From Bacteroidales bacterium (GTDB lineage Bacteria > Bacteroidota > Bacteroidia > Bacteroidales > GWA2-32-17): a stretch of DNA of 48,597 nt. A program made the position numbers and the translations under genes. Below the pieces are notes generated by a model. The model was not told where the DNA came from. It saw only the letters and a program-made list of their open reading frames with translations, and searched no databases. Location of the stretch: contig JAOAFV010000002.1 of assembly GCA_026416095.1 (NCBI GenBank), positions 1 to 48,597 of the forward strand, read 5' to 3'. Every line of letters starts with the position of its first letter. Within the stretch, counting starts at the first letter, position 1. Shown here one piece after another: positions 5,146 to 28,702 of this stretch.

Positions 5146-6271
5146 TTACGAATGTCCACCACTTGGTGGTGGTGCAGGTCGTATATCTTATAACATCGCT
5201 TACAATATTTCTTTAAAAAATAATGAGGTAGTATTTTTAACTACTTGGTTTAAGAACTTAAGAGAAATCGAAATTGTAAATAATAATTTTAAAATAATCC
5301 GGCTAAAGTCGCAACGTAAACATTTATACAAGTCTAACGCTTTCGAAATGTTATGCTGGATTATTAAATGTTTCGATTTTATTCTTAAAAATAAAAGTTT
5401 AATTAAAACTTTTGATTATTGTTTGGCAAACTTTGCTATTCCAGGTGGAATAATAGCTTATTACTTAAAGAAAAAATACAAGATACCATTTTCTGTAATT
5501 TCCCATGGGCACGATATACCATGGTATTACAAAAAACAAATGTTTTTTTATCATTTGCTTTTGTACTGGATTATAAAGTTAATTTGCTTGAGGTGCGATA
5601 AATTATTTGTACAAAGCCAATACATGTACAAAAATGCTGTAAATTTTTTGGGACAAAAAAATAGTATAAAAATTAAAATTATATATAATGGCGTTTCTTA
5701 TCCAATAAACTTTAATTACGAACACAGGAAAACGCAACCTTTTACAATACTATTTGTTGGTAGGTTAGTAAAGCAAAAACGACCCGATGTTTTTATTAAT
5801 GCTTTGGTAGTTCTTCGCTATATGCAAATACAGTATCATGCATACATAATTGGTGATGGCCCCCTATGTAAAAAACTACGAAAAATGCTCACAAAATACA
5901 ATTTAAACCATATTAAAATGGTTGGATGGATTAGTAATAGTGAAATATGGAAATATTACGAAAGAGCTCATGTTTTAGTCTTACCATCAGAATCGGAAGG
6001 TATGTCGATCGCGGTTTTAGAAGCTAAAGTCGCTGGCTTATACATAATTACAACGAATGTTAGTGGCAACCTTGAAATTTTAAATGAATATAAATTTTCG
6101 TCGATTATTAATGAATTAAGTTATAAAAAAATTGCAGATGAATTGCAGGCATATTATTTTAATTATTACTTGAAAAAACTCTTCCCCGACGAAAATTACT
6201 GTAAAACACAAAGCGAAAAATTTTTGTGGGGGCCAATTACAGAAAAATACCTTAATGAAATAATGATATAG
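5126..6271 (+). CDS. GT4 family glycosyltransferase
   Basis: A 381-residue GT-B fold enzyme. The N-terminal domain opens with YECPPLGGGAGRISYNIA, the glycine-rich acceptor-side loop. The C-terminal domain has LFVGRLVKQKRPDVFINAL (nucleotide-sugar domain start), then VGWISNSEIWKYYERA and SESEGMSIAVLEAKVAG, the conserved E-x7-E region of retaining GT4 enzymes. The start overlaps the GT2 gene by 20 bp. As the last gene of the operon it probably extends a glycan built on the lipid carrier loaded by the GT2 enzyme. Specificity is unknown. The stop lies only 14 bp from the convergent phoB-like gene, and I see no strong terminator between them. Confidence 0.88.
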   Translation: MKILMLNYECPPLGGGAGRISYNIAYNISLKNNEVVFLTTWFKNLREIEIVNNNFKIIRLKSQRKHLYKSNAFEMLCWIIKCFDFILKNKSLIKTFDYCLANFAIPGGIIAYYLKKKYKIPFSVISHGHDIPWYYKKQMFFYHLLLYWIIKLICLRCDKLFVQSQYMYKNAVNFLGQKNSIKIKIIYNGVSYPINFNYEHRKTQPFTILFVGRLVKQKRPDVFINALVVLRYMQIQYHAYIIGDGPLCKKLRKMLTKYNLNHIKMVGWISNSEIWKYYERAHVLVLPSESEGMSIAVLEAKVAGLYIITTNVSGNLEILNEYKFSSIINELSYKKIADELQAYYFNYYLKKLFPDENYCKTQSEKFLWGPITEKYLNEIMI

Positions 6272-6285
6272 ATTGTCTCACTTTT

Positions 6286-6972
6286 TTAAATAGAAAACAT
6301 ATAGCCAACACCTTTAATAGTTTCAATATATTTATCACCAATTTTTTGACGTAATTTGCGTATGTGTACATCTATTGTTCTATCGGTAACAATAACATCT
6401 TCACCCCATATTACATCGTACAAATGTTCGCGTGGTATAACTTGATTAGGTTTAGAAGCTAGTAAAAATAGTAATTCAAATTCCTTACGTGGTAATTTTA
6501 TTTCTTTATTATCTATAGTTACTGAATACCTGTTTTTATCGATTATAATATTTTCAAAAAATAGTTTTTCTTCGCTAGTATTAAATTGTTTGCTACGTTT
6601 TAAAAGATTGTTTATTCTAGCAAATAATATTGGTAATGAAATAGGTTTTGTAATAAAATCGTCAGCTCCAAATTCGAAAGCTTTAATATGAGAAAATTCG
6701 TCGTTTTTAGCTGTTAGAAAAATTATAATAGCTTTGTTAAGCTTAAAATCTTCTATAGCTCTTAGTCTTTTACAAACTTCGAATCCATTTAATTTAGGCA
6801 TTATAATGTCGAGCAAGATTACATCGGGTTTTTCTTTTAATGCAATTTTTATTGCTTCTTCTCCATCAAAAGCATTGTAAGTAATAAAACCACTGTTTTT
6901 AAGATTGTAACTAAGTAATTCCACAATATCGGGTTCATCATCAACTATTAATATTTTTGCTTTATTATTCAT
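6286..6972 (-). CDS. phoB: PhoB-like response regulator
   Basis: A 228-residue OmpR/PhoB-family regulator. The receiver domain has the acidic pair Asp11/Asp12, phospho-acceptor Asp55 in LLDIIMPK, and the KP switch in ADDFITKP. The C-terminal winged helix includes LPRKEFELL, the recognition-helix region VTDRTIDVHIRKLRQKIG, and the closing IKGVGYMF. It is the last gene of the pst operon, 3 bp after the sensor kinase gene, which identifies it as the phosphate-starvation regulator. It probably binds the TTAACA direct repeat in front of pstS (12258-12274), making the operon autoregulated; that is inference. Confidence 0.92.
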   Translation of the reverse strand: MNNKAKILIVDDEPDIVELLSYNLKNSGFITYNAFDGEEAIKIALKEKPDVILLDIIMPKLNGFEVCKRLRAIEDFKLNKAIIIFLTAKNDEFSHIKAFEFGADDFITKPISLPILFARINNLLKRSKQFNTSEEKLFFENIIIDKNRYSVTIDNKEIKLPRKEFELLFLLASKPNQVIPREHLYDVIWGEDVIVTDRTIDVHIRKLRQKIGDKYIETIKGVGYMFSI

Positions 6973-6975
6973 AAG

Positions 6976-8013
6976 TTATGCTTTTTTTAAACTAAAACTA
7001 AACGTAGAGCCAACTCCATAAACACTTTTAACAAAAATTTTTTCGTTATGTAGTTCAAGAATGTGTTTTACAATAGAAAGGCCAAGACCGGTACCACCTT
7101 TGTTTTTGCTACGGGTTTTATCTACTCGGTAAAATCTATCAAAAATGAATGGTAAATGGTGACTTTCGATACCTATGCCATTATCGGCAACTTCTATCAT
7201 AAGTTTTTCGCCAATATCAATAATAGTTATAGTAACTTGCCCATTTTCTTTTCCATAAAATATTGAATTTAAAATAAGGTTATACAATACCTCTCCAATT
7301 TTTTTTCTATCGGCATAAACATATGGGTATGAAGAATTATTTATTAAATGCATTTTTATTGAGTGTTCATTTGCTTTATCAATAAGTAAAGTAATAATCT
7401 CGTTTATTAATTCAACCACATTGAATTTACTAAGATTAATTTGCATTTTTCCTTCTTCCATTAAAGAGATTGTTTCTAAATCTTTAATAATATTAATCAT
7501 TCGTTCGGTATTTGTTAATGCTTTATTTAAAAATTCATGTTGCTTATCTTGTGGTAATTTATTATTTACTATGGTATATAAATAGCCTTGAATGTTAAAT
7601 AGAGGGTTCTTTAACTCGTGCGATACATTAGACAGAAATTCACTTCTAAACTTATACATTTGCTTAATCTGATCGTATTCAGACATTTTCTCCGAAATCA
7701 GAGTTGTGAGTTTTTTTGTCAATTCTGTATTTTCGTTTATTTCATCGTTAAAAAGAGCCTTATAAATAGGACTTAATTGCGACTTTATTAAGAAGTTATT
7801 ATAGGCACTTATTATAATAGCGGTTAGTGTAGTTATAAGTGCTAATGAAATGTAAAAAACTAAAGAATTAAAAAAATTATAAATCATAATAATCAACATT
7901 ATGTGAATAAAAAATATCAGAAACAAGCACAAGTCTTTATTATTGAATATTTTATTTAAAAAATTTTTCATTTTTTCTGGAGGTTTTACGCGAAAATAAG
8001 AAAATTTAAGCAT
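6976..8013 (-). CDS. phoR: PhoR-like sensor histidine kinase
   Basis: A 345-residue membrane histidine kinase. Two close membrane segments (about 28-50 and 52-72) leave almost no extracytoplasmic loop, so it cannot bind a ligand outside the cell. This fits PhoR kinases, which sense phosphate through PstB and PhoU. The HisKA motif is SNVSHELKNPL with His132. The HATPase domain shows an N box (LYNLILNSI), G1 (DNGIGI) and G2 (GTGLGLSIV). No PAS domain is evident. The ATG overlaps the phoU stop by 8 bp; a second Met at residue 15 is a possible alternative start. The cognate regulator follows immediately. Confidence 0.92.
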   Translation of the reverse strand: MLKFSYFRVKPPEKMKNFLNKIFNNKDLCLFLIFFIHIMLIIMIYNFFNSLVFYISLALITTLTAIIISAYNNFLIKSQLSPIYKALFNDEINENTELTKKLTTLISEKMSEYDQIKQMYKFRSEFLSNVSHELKNPLFNIQGYLYTIVNNKLPQDKQHEFLNKALTNTERMINIIKDLETISLMEEGKMQINLSKFNVVELINEIITLLIDKANEHSIKMHLINNSSYPYVYADRKKIGEVLYNLILNSIFYGKENGQVTITIIDIGEKLMIEVADNGIGIESHHLPFIFDRFYRVDKTRSKNKGGTGLGLSIVKHILELHNEKIFVKSVYGVGSTFSFSLKKA

Positions 8014-23107: not shown

Positions 23108-24658
23108 ATGAATATTTTGGATACTTCATTAGTTGAATTAGTAAACTGGTCGAGGGCTCAATTTGCGTTGACCGCAATTTATCATTGGTTCTTTGTACCA
23201 TTAACTATAGGGTTATCTTTTATACTTGCAATATGCGAAACAATATACGTAAAAACTGGAAATGAAAATTGGGCAAAAATTACAAGATATTGGATGCAAT
23301 TATTCGCTATAAATTTTGCAATAGGAGTTGCAACAGGCATTGTGCTTGAGTTTGAGTTTGGTACAAATTGGGCAAATTATTCGTGGATTGCAGGCGATAT
23401 TTTTGGAGCACCATTAGCAATAGAGGGTATAATGGCTTTCTTCTTAGAATCAACTTTCATTGGGGTAATGTTGTTTGGTTGGAACAAAATAAGCAAAAAA
23501 ATGCACTTACTTGCAACATGGCTTGTTGCTATAGGTTCAAATTTATCGGCATATTGGATATTGGTTGCTAATGCATGGATGAATAATCCGGTTGGAACTA
23601 AATTTAATCCCGACATGGCAAGAAATGAAATGACAAGTTTTTTTGAAATTGCTTTTTCGCCATTTGCTATTAACAAATTTTTACATACTGTTTCTTCGTG
23701 TTATCTTGTTTCTGCCCTGTTTGTATTAGGGGTAAGTTCATGGTATCTTTTAAAAAATAGAAATGTAGAATTTGCAAAGAAAAGTATTCTTATTGGTTCA
23801 ATATTTGGATTATTTGCTTCTATACTCATTATTATAACTGGGCACAGCTCTGCTCAACTAATAGCCGAAAAGCAGCCAATGAAACTTGCTGCTATGGAAG
23901 GCTTATATAATGGTAAAAAAGGAGCAGATTTAATAGTCTTCGGAGTGCTAAAAGATAGGTCTCAACTCAACAATGATGCTGATAGCGATCCTTTTATATT
24001 TAAAATAAGTATACCAAAATTGTTATCTTTTCTTGCTTTTGAAGACTTTAATAGTTTTGTTCCTGGAATTAATGATATTTTATATGGAAATAAAGAACAT
24101 AATATTAAGCCGATAACAGAAAAAATTGAAAAAGGCAAAATAGCTATAAGTGCTTTGCAACAATATAGAGAAGCGTTAAAAGCCTCCAATAAGCAAAAAA
24201 TGGATGAGATGAGAAAGGTTTTAAATGAAAATTATAAATACATAGGCTATGGATATTTCAAAAATATTGAACATTTAATTCCTAATGTATTTTTGGTTTT
24301 TTATAGTTTTCATATAATGGTTGCTCTTGGTTTTTATTTTGTACTTGTATTTATTGTAGCTTTGTGGCTATTGAAGAAAAATAGTTTACAAAATAAAAAG
24401 CTTTTACTTAGACTTTTTGTTTTTAATATTTTTCTTGGCTTTATAGCCTCACAATTGGGGTGGGTTGTTGCCGAAGTAGGAAGACAACCATGGGTTATTC
24501 AAGATATTTTACCAGTTTTTAAAGCAACATCTCATTTATCTGTAAAAATGGTGCAAACAACATTTTTTATATTTTTAATATTATTTACCATTCTTTTATT
24601 AGCTGAAATAAAAATATTATTACATAAAATAAGAAAAACAACTATTGAGTTAAACTAA
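23108..24658 (+). CDS. cydA: Cytochrome bd ubiquinol oxidase subunit I
   Basis: A 516-residue integral membrane subunit. The N-terminal SRAQFALTAIYHWFFVPLTIGLS carries the haem b595 ligand His. An SNLSAYWILVANAWMNNPVG region and a HSSAQ segment follow. The closing GWVVAEVGRQPWVIQ is the CydA signature near haem b558 and the quinol site. The Q-loop is of the short type. With CydB it oxidises menaquinol and reduces oxygen to water at very low oxygen pressure. It follows the DUF4492 gene by 4 bp and precedes cydB by 12 bp. Confidence 0.97.
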   Translation: MNILDTSLVELVNWSRAQFALTAIYHWFFVPLTIGLSFILAICETIYVKTGNENWAKITRYWMQLFAINFAIGVATGIVLEFEFGTNWANYSWIAGDIFGAPLAIEGIMAFFLESTFIGVMLFGWNKISKKMHLLATWLVAIGSNLSAYWILVANAWMNNPVGTKFNPDMARNEMTSFFEIAFSPFAINKFLHTVSSCYLVSALFVLGVSSWYLLKNRNVEFAKKSILIGSIFGLFASILIIITGHSSAQLIAEKQPMKLAAMEGLYNGKKGADLIVFGVLKDRSQLNNDADSDPFIFKISIPKLLSFLAFEDFNSFVPGINDILYGNKEHNIKPITEKIEKGKIAISALQQYREALKASNKQKMDEMRKVLNENYKYIGYGYFKNIEHLIPNVFLVFYSFHIMVALGFYFVLVFIVALWLLKKNSLQNKKLLLRLFVFNIFLGFIASQLGWVVAEVGRQPWVIQDILPVFKATSHLSVKMVQTTFFIFLILFTILLLAEIKILLHKIRKTTIELN

Positions 24659-24670
24659 AAAAATGTTAAA

Positions 24671-25786
24671 ATGAGCGAAGTAATTTCTTTAACTTTTTTA
24701 CAAAACTATTGGTGGGTTATAATATCAATTTTAGGAAGTTTTCTTATTTTTTTGATGTACATTCAAGGCGGACAAACTTTAATTTACACAATTGGCAAAA
24801 ATGAAGAAGAGTTAAATTTACTAATAAACGCATTAGGCAGAAAATGGGAACTTACTTTTACTACTTTAGTAACCTTTGGCGGTGCATTTTACGCCTCATT
24901 CCCTTTATTTTATGCAACAATCTTGAGTGGAGCATACTGGCTATGGATAATAACTCTAATCGTATTTGTTTTGCAGGCTGTTTCTTATGAATTTAGAAAT
25001 AAAGCAAATAATCTATTAGGGAAAAAAACTTACGAATATTTTTTATTTTTTAATGGTTTAATAGCATCTTTATTTTTAGGAATAATAATAGGTAGCTTCT
25101 TTACAGGTAACGATTTTTATATTAATGAAAATAATTTACCAAAGTGGAACAATCATTTGCATGGGCTCGAAAATATTCTATGTATTGAAAATCTAATTAT
25201 GGGTATTACTCTTTTTTTCCTCTCTCGGACCAACGGAGCTTTGTTTTTTGTTTATTCTATTGACAACACTAATATTGTTAAAAATAGTTTAAAACAAACA
25301 AAAATTAATGGATTAATTTCTTGTATCTCTTTTATATTATTTTTAATATTAATTTTTTTGAGAAAAGGTTATGAATACAATAATGATTATATATATTTAA
25401 GAGAGAACAAATATTTTTTAAACTTCATTGAAATGCCAATTACATTAGTTTTTTTACTTAGTGGTTTATTTCTTCTTATTTATTCCATACTTAAAACATC
25501 TGGTAAAAATGTTGATAAGTTGTTTCTAATAAGTGGGTTAGCTACTATTTTATTAGTGTTTTCATTATTTTTAAACTTAGGTTTTAATAATACATGTTAT
25601 TTCCCATCATATGCCGATGTTAAATCTTCGTTAAATATAAGAAATTCATCTTCAAGCTATTTTACGTTATCTGTATTGAGTATTGCGTCGTTAATTTTGC
25701 CTTTTGTTTTGTGGTATATTATACGTGCATGGAAGTTAATTACAAAAGTTTCGTCAAGCGATACTTTGGAAAATAATGACTATTAA
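24671..25786 (+). CDS. cydB: Cytochrome bd ubiquinol oxidase subunit II
   Basis: A 371-residue membrane protein with about eight or nine helices. The family start is visible (NYWWVIISILGSFLIFLMYIQGG), as are GRKWELTFTTLVTFGGAFYASFPLFYATIL and YEFRNKANN. CydB is the structural partner of CydA and does not carry the catalytic haems in most members. Sequence conservation drops in the middle (about 195-310), as is usual in Bacteroidota CydB. The following 213 bp to the next stop codon contain only a weak imperfect hairpin near 25867-25893 and no gene. Confidence 0.93.
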   Translation: MSEVISLTFLQNYWWVIISILGSFLIFLMYIQGGQTLIYTIGKNEEELNLLINALGRKWELTFTTLVTFGGAFYASFPLFYATILSGAYWLWIITLIVFVLQAVSYEFRNKANNLLGKKTYEYFLFFNGLIASLFLGIIIGSFFTGNDFYINENNLPKWNNHLHGLENILCIENLIMGITLFFLSRTNGALFFVYSIDNTNIVKNSLKQTKINGLISCISFILFLILIFLRKGYEYNNDYIYLRENKYFLNFIEMPITLVFLLSGLFLLIYSILKTSGKNVDKLFLISGLATILLVFSLFLNLGFNNTCYFPSYADVKSSLNIRNSSSSYFTLSVLSIASLILPFVLWYIIRAWKLITKVSSSDTLENNDY

Positions 25787-25999: not shown

Positions 26000-27112
26000 T
26001 CACTTCCAAACACCTTCAATTATCATTCCACATTTAGCACATTTACCATCTTTTAGCCCTGTTATTTTTACATTGTATCCATATCTTTCTATTAAAGTAA
26101 AGCCACATTTAGGACACACCGTATTTTCTTTTTGTAAAATGTTACCTTCGTAAACGTACCTTATTCCGGCTTTTTTTGCAATTTCTACAGCTTTTTTAAT
26201 TGTTTCTAATGGTGTTGGATATAGGCTAGTTAACTTGTAAGCAGGAAAAAAACGCGAAAAATGTAATGGGGTTGTGCTAAAGCCGTTGTTAACCAACCAT
26301 TTTGCCATTTCTTCAATCATTTTTAAGTCGTCAGTGTAAGTAGGAACAATGAGATTAGTAATTTCAAGCCATACATTATGTTTCTTAAGTAATTTTAAAG
26401 TATTTAATACAGGATGCAAGGTACCACCGTTTAACGATCTGTATATGCTATCGCTAAAATTCTTTAAATCAATGTTAGCTGCATCTATGTAAGGAATTAA
26501 CTCTAAAAGTGGTTTCTCGTTAATGTATCCATTACTTACGATAACAGTTTTTAAACCTTTTTTCTTAGCAAGTACAGCAATGTCGTACATATATTCATAG
26601 AATATAATGGGTTCATTATATGTAAAGGCTATAGAGGGACAGTTATTTTTAATAGCCAAATCCACTATTTCTTCGGGTGTATAATTGTACGATTTTATTT
26701 CGAGAGGTGAAAACTGCGATATTTGCCAATTCTGACAGTTTAAACAAGAAAAATTACAACCTGCAGTTCCAATAGAAAAAATATTAGTTGTAGGAAAAAA
26801 ATGATATAATGGCTTTTTTTCGATAGGATCAATGTTAATCGATACTGGTTTGTTATAGGTTAAAGCATATAATGTGCCATTTATGTTTTTTCTTGCTTTG
26901 CAAATCCCAATATCTCCATTCTTTAATATACACTCATGCGGACACAATTTACATTTTACAACCCCTTCTCTAACTTTCTCCCAATGTTTGGCTTCCTTAA
27001 ATTTCGATTGCTGTAACTCATTCATATTTGGTTTATCTTTAAGACTTAAAATTAAAAACACTAATACAACAAAAAAAACAATTAAAATTAAAAAAAATAT
27101 TTTTTTAAACAT
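26000..27112 (-). CDS. amrS: AmmeMemoRadiSam system radical SAM protein with N-terminal membrane anchor
   Basis: A 370-residue radical SAM protein. The cluster motif is GCNFSCLNCQNW with Cys119, Cys123 and Cys126. An N-terminal Cys set (Cys54, 57, 61, 71: CKLCPHECILKNGDIGIC) and a C-terminal zinc-ribbon (VCPKC and KCAKC) are typical of this PflA-like family. FTYNEP and LKNFSD segments fit the TIM barrel. Odd feature: residues 1-25 are one strong membrane helix preceded by two Lys and followed by LKDKPN, so the catalytic domain may face the periplasm. It diverges from the amrB-amrA fusion 91 bp away. The system is recognised but its reaction is unknown. Confidence 0.88.
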   Translation of the reverse strand: MFKKIFFLILIVFFVVLVFLILSLKDKPNMNELQQSKFKEAKHWEKVREGVVKCKLCPHECILKNGDIGICKARKNINGTLYALTYNKPVSINIDPIEKKPLYHFFPTTNIFSIGTAGCNFSCLNCQNWQISQFSPLEIKSYNYTPEEIVDLAIKNNCPSIAFTYNEPIIFYEYMYDIAVLAKKKGLKTVIVSNGYINEKPLLELIPYIDAANIDLKNFSDSIYRSLNGGTLHPVLNTLKLLKKHNVWLEITNLIVPTYTDDLKMIEEMAKWLVNNGFSTTPLHFSRFFPAYKLTSLYPTPLETIKKAVEIAKKAGIRYVYEGNILQKENTVCPKCGFTLIERYGYNVKITGLKDGKCAKCGMIIEGVWK

Positions 27113-27132
27113 AATTTTTAAGTTTTTGTTTT

Positions 27133-27140
27133 CAAATTTA
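27133..27140 (-). promoter_or_regulatory. -7 element of amrS (TAAATTTG)
   Basis: Reverse-strand TAAATTTG matches TAnnTTTG exactly and lies 21 bp before the amrS ATG. Confidence 0.5.
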
Positions 27141-27151
27141 CAACTTTTTTA

Positions 27152-27183
27152 TTTGTTAAAGTTAAAATTATTTATTTTCTTTG
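27152..27183 (+). promoter_or_regulatory. Putative promoter of the amrB-amrA fusion
   Basis: TTTG at 27152-27155, a 20-bp spacer, then TTTCTTTG at 27176-27183 (one mismatch to TAnnTTTG). It is arranged back-to-back with the amrS promoter in a 90-bp gap. Confidence 0.4.
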
Positions 27184-27202
27184 TAAAAAACGTAGTTTTT
27201 TA

Positions 27203-28702
27203 ATGCAACTTTTTTATAAAATAATATTGTTAATTATAATAATAAATTCATATATGTGTAGTTCGGCTCAAAAACGTAAGGCTGTTGTTCAGGGAACTTT
27301 TTATTCGGAAAATAAAATTATTCTAAAAAAACAAATTGAAGACTGGTTAAAAAAATATGATCCAGTAAAATATAAAAAAGTAAGAGCAATAATTGTGCCA
27401 CATGCTGGTTATATGTATAGTGGCGAAATTGCAGCAAGTGGCTTTGCTTATATTAATCCAGAAGCTAAGTATAGGAATGTTTTTATAATTGGGCGTAGTC
27501 ATTCTGGTTATTTTGAAGGCGCTTCGCTATATTCAAAAGGTTTTTTTTCTAACACTCTCGGAGATGTTGAAGTTAACTCAGAGATATGCGAAGAGTTAAA
27601 AAAGAATTCTATATTTAACCATTCGGAAGATTATCACCTTAATGAACACTCTATAGAAGTAGAAATACCATTTTTACAAATAAGGCTAAAAAATGATTTC
27701 AAAATAGTGCCTATACTTATTGGCACCGAAAATCAAGTTATTTTAGATAAAATAGCTACTATACTTAAAAAGTATTTTGTACCAGAAAATTTATTTGTTA
27801 TTAGTACCGATTTATCACATTATCCTCCATTTAACGATGCTGTAGAAGCTGACAACAAAACAATTGAGGCTATACTTTCATTAAATGCTTCTAATTTTCT
27901 TAATACTATTAATGATATAGAAAATAGTGGTAAATACAAACGTCTTTCAACTGCTGCATGTGGCGGTGCTGCTGTATACGTTATGCTAAAAATTATGGAA
28001 AATGAAAGTATTCAGTTAGAAAAAATAAAATATGCAAATAGTGGTAATATTTCAGGCGAACAAGATAGGGTGGTAGGTTACGTATCAATCGTCGCTTTTG
28101 AAAAATCACCACAATCTACAACAAAAGAAGATAAATCTGAACAAAGCGAGTTTACGATAACAGAAGATGAAAAAAAGTTACTATTACAATTGGCACGTAA
28201 TAGTATATTGTCGGCTTTTAAAAATACTCCAGTGCCTGAATTACGATTGCCAGCAAATTCTAATTTATCTAAAAATTGTGGTGTTTTTGTTTCCTTATAC
28301 AAAAATGGAGAGTTAAGAGGTTGTATAGGTACCTTTCGCCAAGATATGGCACTATGGAAAAATGTAATAGATATGGCCAAAGCATCAGCTTTTGAAGATC
28401 ATAGATTTTCTCCTGTTCAAGAAGATGAACTTAAAGACATAAAAATTGAAATAAGCGTATTAACACCTTTAAAAAAAGTAACTTCTATTAGTGAAATTGA
28501 ACTCGGACGTCATGGTATTTATATTAAAAAGGGTTATAAAACTGGTACTTTTTTACCACAGGTAGCTAAGAATACTGGCTGGACACTCGAAGAATTTTTA
28601 GGTCGTTGTGCGAGAGATAAAGCAGGAATAGGTTATTACGGATGGAAAGATCCTGACACAGAAATTTATATATACGAAGCTATTGTGTTTGGCGAAAAGT
28701 AA
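27203..28702 (+). CDS. Fused AmmeMemoRadiSam proteins B (MEMO) and A (AMMECR1), with signal peptide
   Basis: A 499-residue two-domain protein. Residues 1-22 form a signal peptide that ends CSSA before Gln, the usual Bacteroidota cleavage pattern. Residues about 24-290 are a MEMO domain: VPHAGYMYSGEIAASGF, GRSHSGYFEGAS, STDLSHYPP and TAACGGAA, supplying the metal-site His residues. After a Ser/Thr/Lys linker (about 292-312), residues 313-499 are an AMMECR1 domain: GVFVSLYKNGELRGCIGTF and EISVLTPL. Fusing B and A, which are separate genes in many genomes, supports joint function. With amrS next to it, all three parts are present. Substrate and reaction are unknown. Confidence 0.9.
   Translation: MQLFYKIILLIIIINSYMCSSAQKRKAVVQGTFYSENKIILKKQIEDWLKKYDPVKYKKVRAIIVPHAGYMYSGEIAASGFAYINPEAKYRNVFIIGRSHSGYFEGASLYSKGFFSNTLGDVEVNSEICEELKKNSIFNHSEDYHLNEHSIEVEIPFLQIRLKNDFKIVPILIGTENQVILDKIATILKKYFVPENLFVISTDLSHYPPFNDAVEADNKTIEAILSLNASNFLNTINDIENSGKYKRLSTAACGGAAVYVMLKIMENESIQLEKIKYANSGNISGEQDRVVGYVSIVAFEKSPQSTTKEDKSEQSEFTITEDEKKLLLQLARNSILSAFKNTPVPELRLPANSNLSKNCGVFVSLYKNGELRGCIGTFRQDMALWKNVIDMAKASAFEDHRFSPVQEDELKDIKIEISVLTPLKKVTSISEIELGRHGIYIKKGYKTGTFLPQVAKNTGWTLEEFLGRCARDKAGIGYYGWKDPDTEIYIYEAIVFGEK

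Follow-up and report, generated by a model that had tools for sequence, protein, structure and literature searches.

The two divergent genes described here encode an AmmeMemoRadiSam system whose proteins both begin with an export or anchoring segment, and on balance we favour an extracytoplasmic system, with the radical SAM enzyme (hereafter S) exported by Tat in genomes that possess this pathway and anchored by Sec in some genomes that lack it. The genes lie in a stretch of DNA of 48,597 nucleotides, the whole of which we call the window. S (370 aa; 26000-27112, minus strand) reaches 368.7 bits against TIGR04337 (cut-off 220), and BA, a fused MEMO-AMMECR1 protein of 499 aa (27203-28702, plus strand), reaches 231.7 bits against TIGR04336 (cut-off 26) and 168.4 bits against TIGR04335 (cut-off 99) in one frame. 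The family assignments of the original prediction are confirmed by these scores, and its coordinates, strands and divergent arrangement are all correct, the system members being encoded together across a 90-bp gap (27113-27202). Adjoining S, and convergent with it, are genes (23108-25786) that by eye resemble subunits I and II of cytochrome bd oxidase.

The BA N-terminus reads MQLFYK, a hydrophobic core and then MCSSAQKRK, which by hydropathy and by comparison with the signals of relatives has the appearance of a Sec-type signal, as predicted (residues 1-23, 27203-27271). Signals throughout this study were called from hydropathy, charges and motifs, and by a simple rule a hydrophobic N-terminal segment is present in 41 of 54 BA rows, that of the window included. 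A recurrent feature at the end of BA signals is a Cys with one or two residues between it and a following Gln (L046, L047, L107, L108, L091, L095 and L114; Cys19 in the window, 27257-27259), often without a standard lipobox ahead of it; Cys19 stands in an SYMC context, with Met before the Cys, and the Cys of relatives follows N, H, S, G or Y. Downstream lie the MEMO domain (residues 28-297, 27284-28093; PF01875, 201.1 bits) and the AMMECR1 domain (residues 328-496, 28184-28690; PF01871, 178.3 bits), with sequence matches to human MEMO1 (3bcz, 7kq8) and AMMECR1-like (1zq7, 1vaj) chains at 3e-26 and 7e-24. Aligned to the human MEMO1 chains, H67, H100 and C253 of BA fall on what we take to be His49, His81 and Cys244 in the numbering of that protein, and the RGCIG motif is kept at position 372.

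S in turn has the features of the radical SAM superfamily. Its radical SAM domain (residues 116-273, 26294-26767) matches PF04055 at 80.6 bits and carries the CxxxCxxC motif (C119, C123 and C126), and a model of S built from 36 sequences (mean pLDDT 94.5) has its best fold match in PFL activating enzyme (E 2.3e-15, TM 0.81 by target length), which is also the closest solved sequence (E 1e-9). The CxxxCxxC belongs to a group of eleven Cys, in three sets, that do not vary across 36 homologues, whether or not these carry a signal. These observations bear on one explanation of an exported S, namely that it is no longer a radical SAM enzyme and that its cysteines have another use, for instance to bind metal or exchange thiols. 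In favour of this, neither SAM nor reduced clusters would be expected beyond the cytoplasm, and the DsbD_2 neighbours of helix-type loci described below could serve thiols, but the invariance of all eleven Cys whether or not a signal is present, and a best fold match that is itself a SAM-binding enzyme, make this explanation highly improbable. BA retains the MEMO metal residues and the RGCIG motif, and no sign of decay was seen in either enzyme.

The S N-terminus is also as originally described: MFKK, an uncharged hydrophobic core at residues 5-24 (27041-27100) and then KDK, with no RR or KR that could form a twin-arginine motif. The best 19-residue Kyte-Doolittle mean of S is 3.53, and the AlphaFold model places a helix at residues 2-25, with block pLDDT values of 86 and 92 (residues 1-20) and 71 (residues 21-30). 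The start site needed testing here, since the first 87 nt of S have a GC content of 13%, matching the 13% of the gap, versus 32% in the rest of the gene. Were S translated from Met30 (codon at 27023-27025), near where signal-free homologues begin, the hydrophobic segment would be an untranslated leader and S an ordinary cytoplasmic enzyme; no such helix is found in the ten S genes of nine family relatives, which would fit a start at this codon.

Chance tests on the 123 nt that run from the stop codon preceding S to its codon 29, in which ATG-started extensions were scored by 19-residue hydropathy, argue against a start at Met30. None of 20,000 dinucleotide shuffles reached a hydropathy of 3.0 (one reached 2.5), nor did any of 61,040 intergenic 123-mers from the same genome (41 reached 2.5), although some selection remains in these figures because the segment was pre-selected in the original prediction. 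Codons 5-23 have T at the second position in 18 of 19 cases, against 10 of 19 at the first position and 11 of 19 at the third (P 0.002 given T content). In addition, a pattern scan places a possible promoter box for S, TAAATTTG (27140-27133, minus strand), 20 nt before Met1; it fits TAnnTTTG, which we take to be the Bacteroidota-type -7 box, and is the sole match of the scanned region, with none between Met1 and Met30, but since 0.09 chance matches are expected in 90 nt this evidence is weak. Both proteins carry N-terminal export or anchoring segments, as claimed at the outset, and these are not well explained by chance, for S on the strength of the shuffles and intergenic stretches. We take the S helix as coding, AT-rich read-through being an unlikely source of it, and give initiation at Met30 little credence.

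To place the pair among its relatives, one genome from each of 84,980 species was scanned; of at least 589 loci the 80 best were named, so the counts of types that follow are no population estimate. A phylum draw covered 395 genomes, of which 84 had matches at E up to 1e-60, and gave 30 places with DNA. The S tree holds 121 of 137 rows; the 16 omitted belong to the L196-L217 block and are all without signal, L202 being cut by a contig end. Among the 121 sampled rows, after hand correction, 51 S proteins have a Tat-type N-terminus, 63 have no signal and 7, the window included, have a plain hydrophobic helix. Rows L009, L109, L161, L194 and L196 were set by hand to signal-free, L135 was corrected to helix and L121 to Tat; the 51 include the doubtful Tat calls L156, L168 and L139, as well as L073, which is the same gene as L100 and stands outside the TatC table.

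The 51 Tat motifs comprise 25 RR and 26 KR, the latter mostly in Bacteroidota, and a strict Tat consensus (e.g., SKREFLK, TRRDFLK) fits 39 of them. These putative signals join the motif to a hydrophobic stretch, and TatC was found in the genome for 31 of the 33 Tat-type rows with data. The titles of their records include Bacteroidales, Desulfobacterales, Omnitrophota, Stahlbacteria, Planctomycetota, KSB1, Latescibacterota and Altiarchaeota; the records are nearly all metagenome bins, so that single taxon assignments may be wrong. The pair had been taken for a lone oddity, a view that we abandon because exported forms occur across many phyla, and the homologue comparison that had been proposed as a check finds export signals widespread in the family, with Tat-type S in 51 of 121 rows and a BA signal at 26 of 26 loci beside Tat- or helix-type S. 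Among the helix-type proteins, those of L122 and L135 have a lipobox-like sequence, LIAC and LTAC respectively, at the end of the helix. At L089 (G022) two S copies stand in tandem (321-1346 and 1356-2507), one signal-free and one Tat-type, which suggests split roles inside and outside.

TatC was sought in 41 genomes (the window's own and 40 relatives) and in those that hold 40 of the named loci. The window genome, whose assembly is 96.9% complete, has no match to TatC or TatA; SecY is present in it, and in 13 of 13 genomes checked. Across the 67 rows with data, TatC is missing for 6 of the 7 helix-type rows, for 2 of the 33 of Tat type and for 4 of the 27 without signal. The comparison of helix-type with all other rows (6/7 vs 6/60) gives P 6e-5, or 3e-4 without the window row, in a sample whose rows share ancestry and whose tree shows about three helix lineages (the window; L122, L135 and L141; L126, L136 and L130). 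If each of four groups, with L126 and L130 counted apart, is represented by a single row, P comes to 0.007 or to 0.0003 according to which Omnitrophota row is used, and an independent-pairs test of helix against Tat loss finds two supported pairs (four on all branches), too few for significance. TatA is likewise absent from the six TatC-less helix-type genomes. At L112, where S is Tat-type and TatC is missing, TatA is present in the genome, and on this ground we read the absence as probably an assembly gap.

Two observations count against a helix in the role of a Tat signal. The genome of L141 encodes a helix-type S and TatC was found in it twice, and conversely G002 and G003, from the window's own genus, have no TatC match and a signal-free S. 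Within that genus TatC is present in G001 and was not found in G000 (the window genome), G002 or G003, a pattern that could reflect recent Tat loss or gaps.

The type of S can also be set beside the state of its partner, for which we scored 38 loci with a typed S and a complete BA whose 5' end is intact. A BA signal occurs at 26 of 26 loci with Tat- or helix-type S (4 of 4 for helix-type loci alone) versus 6 of the 12 whose S lacks a signal (P 3e-4). An exported partner favours a position of the S domain outside as well, yet relatives with exported BA and signal-free S exist. Alternatively, a tether might hold S against the inner face of the membrane (N-out/C-in), where it would act in the cytoplasm with an ordinary supply of clusters and SAM, BA being exported and separate. 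The cytoplasm is where SAM and low-potential electrons are found, and the charges that flank the window helix (+2 before it, +2 in the 15 residues after it) are equal and do not fix its topology. The pairing of an exported BA with a signal-free S, found at 6 of the 12 scored loci that have such an S, also occurs in 6 of 9 relatives of the same family: BA has a signal in G004-G009, none in G001 and G003, and in G002 only from a GTG start, and the ten S genes of these nine genomes comprise nine without signal, one Tat-like (the second copy of G009) and none with a helix of the window type. That this combination is common in the family is the main evidence against a shared compartment. It also half bears out what the original prediction had named as telling against it, homologues without the N-terminal segments: the helix is missing from all ten S genes.

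The Tat signals on 51 of the 121 sampled S rows could not, on the other hand, provide a tether to the inner face. The other six helix-type proteins are more positive on the N side of the helix than on the C side, which favours N-in/C-out, and helix-type S goes with Tat-less genomes and, at every scored helix-type locus, with exported BA. We consider cytoplasmic action of a tethered S unlikely, and prefer an S whose catalytic domain would face outward.

As to ancestry, the window BA groups with the exported BA of L112 (SH-aLRT 96), which favours an extracytoplasmic system, and the window S branches near the signal-free L110 and L113 (86/86), which counts against one. AU tests do not reject joining the window S to the Bacteroidales Tat rows (p 0.21) or to L112 alone (p 0.10). 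With S beside signal-free rows and the AU tests indecisive, it is at most possible that the helix directly replaced a Tat signal in the lineage of the window.

The surroundings of the other helix-type loci are suggestive of redox partners. A DsbD_2 membrane protein adjoins at 6 of 6 of them: at L126, L136 and L130 a protein of 554-562 residues with DsbD_2, FMN_bind and Fer4_5 domains lies directly upstream of S, and at L122, L135 and L141 a DsbD_2 protein of 202-218 residues follows directly after BA. FMN_bind/Fer4_5 proteins are known membrane electron carriers to extracytoplasmic enzymes. Profiles from each trio detect members of the other, that of one trio only in part, and a profile from all six proteins, scanned over 91 loci, finds one further match, at L172, where the domain is in frame with S. 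In this Lentisphaeria bin (6146-8008) S shares a reading frame with an upstream DsbD_2-like membrane domain, and by our rule it was counted as signal-free. The FMN_bind/Fer4_5 profile has further hits at L155 and L167, neither of them helix-type, and in a gene (L235) in another part of the window's own genome.

With the six-protein profile no DsbD_2 gene is found within the 48.6 kb of the window; the window genome has two DsbD_2 matches elsewhere, and each of the 12 genomes searched has at least one. None of the six neighbours was picked up with a DsbD_2 profile built on five other genes, so that DsbD_2 proteins of divergent sequence may go unseen at other loci and absence by such profiles is soft evidence. 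A wider reading is possible, to which we give somewhat less than even credence: an extracytoplasmic AmmeMemoRadiSam branch would exist in many phyla, and in Tat-less genomes a Sec-delivered S would obtain its clusters and electrons outside, in the other helix lineages by way of the adjacent DsbD_2 (and FMN_bind/Fer4_5) proteins.

A further gene, X, is found at many Tat-type loci in the order BA, X, S (e.g., L089-L093, L112, L116, L120, L124, L128, L131, L132 and L148), at L089-L093, L112, L116, L120, L124 and L128 between an exported BA and a Tat-type S. X is a multi-helix membrane protein with a spermine-synthase-like domain (PF01564). Several X proteins have an extra N-terminal multi-helix domain with conserved His and a weak, below-cut-off match to DUF4405, from which the domain may be cytochrome-b-like in look. 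The window genome has no match to X; the same query matched 9 of 15 genomes, two of these matches being weak or partial and perhaps ordinary spermidine synthases. That the window has neither X nor a DsbD_2 gene next to the pair weighs against an extracytoplasmic system.

Taken together, we propose that the system operates as follows. BA would be exported by Sec and sit in the periplasm or on a membrane, and S would be anchored in the inner membrane through the helix at its N-terminus, its radical SAM domain most likely facing outward, next to BA. Where relatives possess Tat, S would cross the membrane already folded and loaded with its iron-sulfur clusters; in the Tat-less window genome the Sec-type helix would serve in place of the Tat signal, with clusters assembled and electrons supplied outside. 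S, acting jointly with BA, would then make a radical on an extracytoplasmic substrate, as do the glycyl-radical activases alike in fold, and the MEMO and AMMECR1 domains of BA may bind or finish that substrate.

Radical SAM enzymes depend on SAM and on electrons of low potential, and to our knowledge none acts outside the cytoplasm; we also know of no precedent for cluster assembly after Sec export. The export signals on both partners and on distant relatives hint at an unstudied radical chemistry at the cell surface. Because Tat-type signals occur across phyla and are matched on the partner, the compartment of the system, and hence the class of its substrate, is directly testable, and the Tat-less helix-type genomes offer a test case for the completion of an iron-sulfur enzyme after Sec export. 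Since these families also include human MEMO1 and AMMECR1, the bacterial reaction may bear on the human proteins as well. Among the papers listed by the literature searches, which did not cover Burroughs et al. 2019 (doi 10.1074/jbc.RA119.007595; cited for Memo-Ammecr1 systems in PMC7159879), none on an exported AmmeMemoRadiSam system or on a periplasmic radical SAM enzyme was found.

Compared with known systems, the pair agrees with AmmeMemoRadiSam as defined by NCBIfam (TIGR04335, TIGR04336 and TIGR04337) in that all three members match over cut-off, two of them fused and the third adjacent; it differs in the export or anchoring segments on both proteins, the NCBIfam names giving no location. 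BA shares its domains with human MEMO1 and AMMECR1-like proteins, but is a single fused protein led by what appears to be a Sec-type signal. S resembles PFL activating enzyme (3c8f, 3cb8, 8fo0) in fold, sequence and the CxxxCxxC motif, whereas that enzyme has 245 residues and no N-terminal helix, and S has the helix and eight further invariant Cys in two flanking sets. Finally, many relatives of S share with Tat-exported iron-sulfur enzymes the SRRxFLK-type signals and a TatC in the genome, whereas the window S is without a twin-arginine motif in a genome without a TatC or TatA match.
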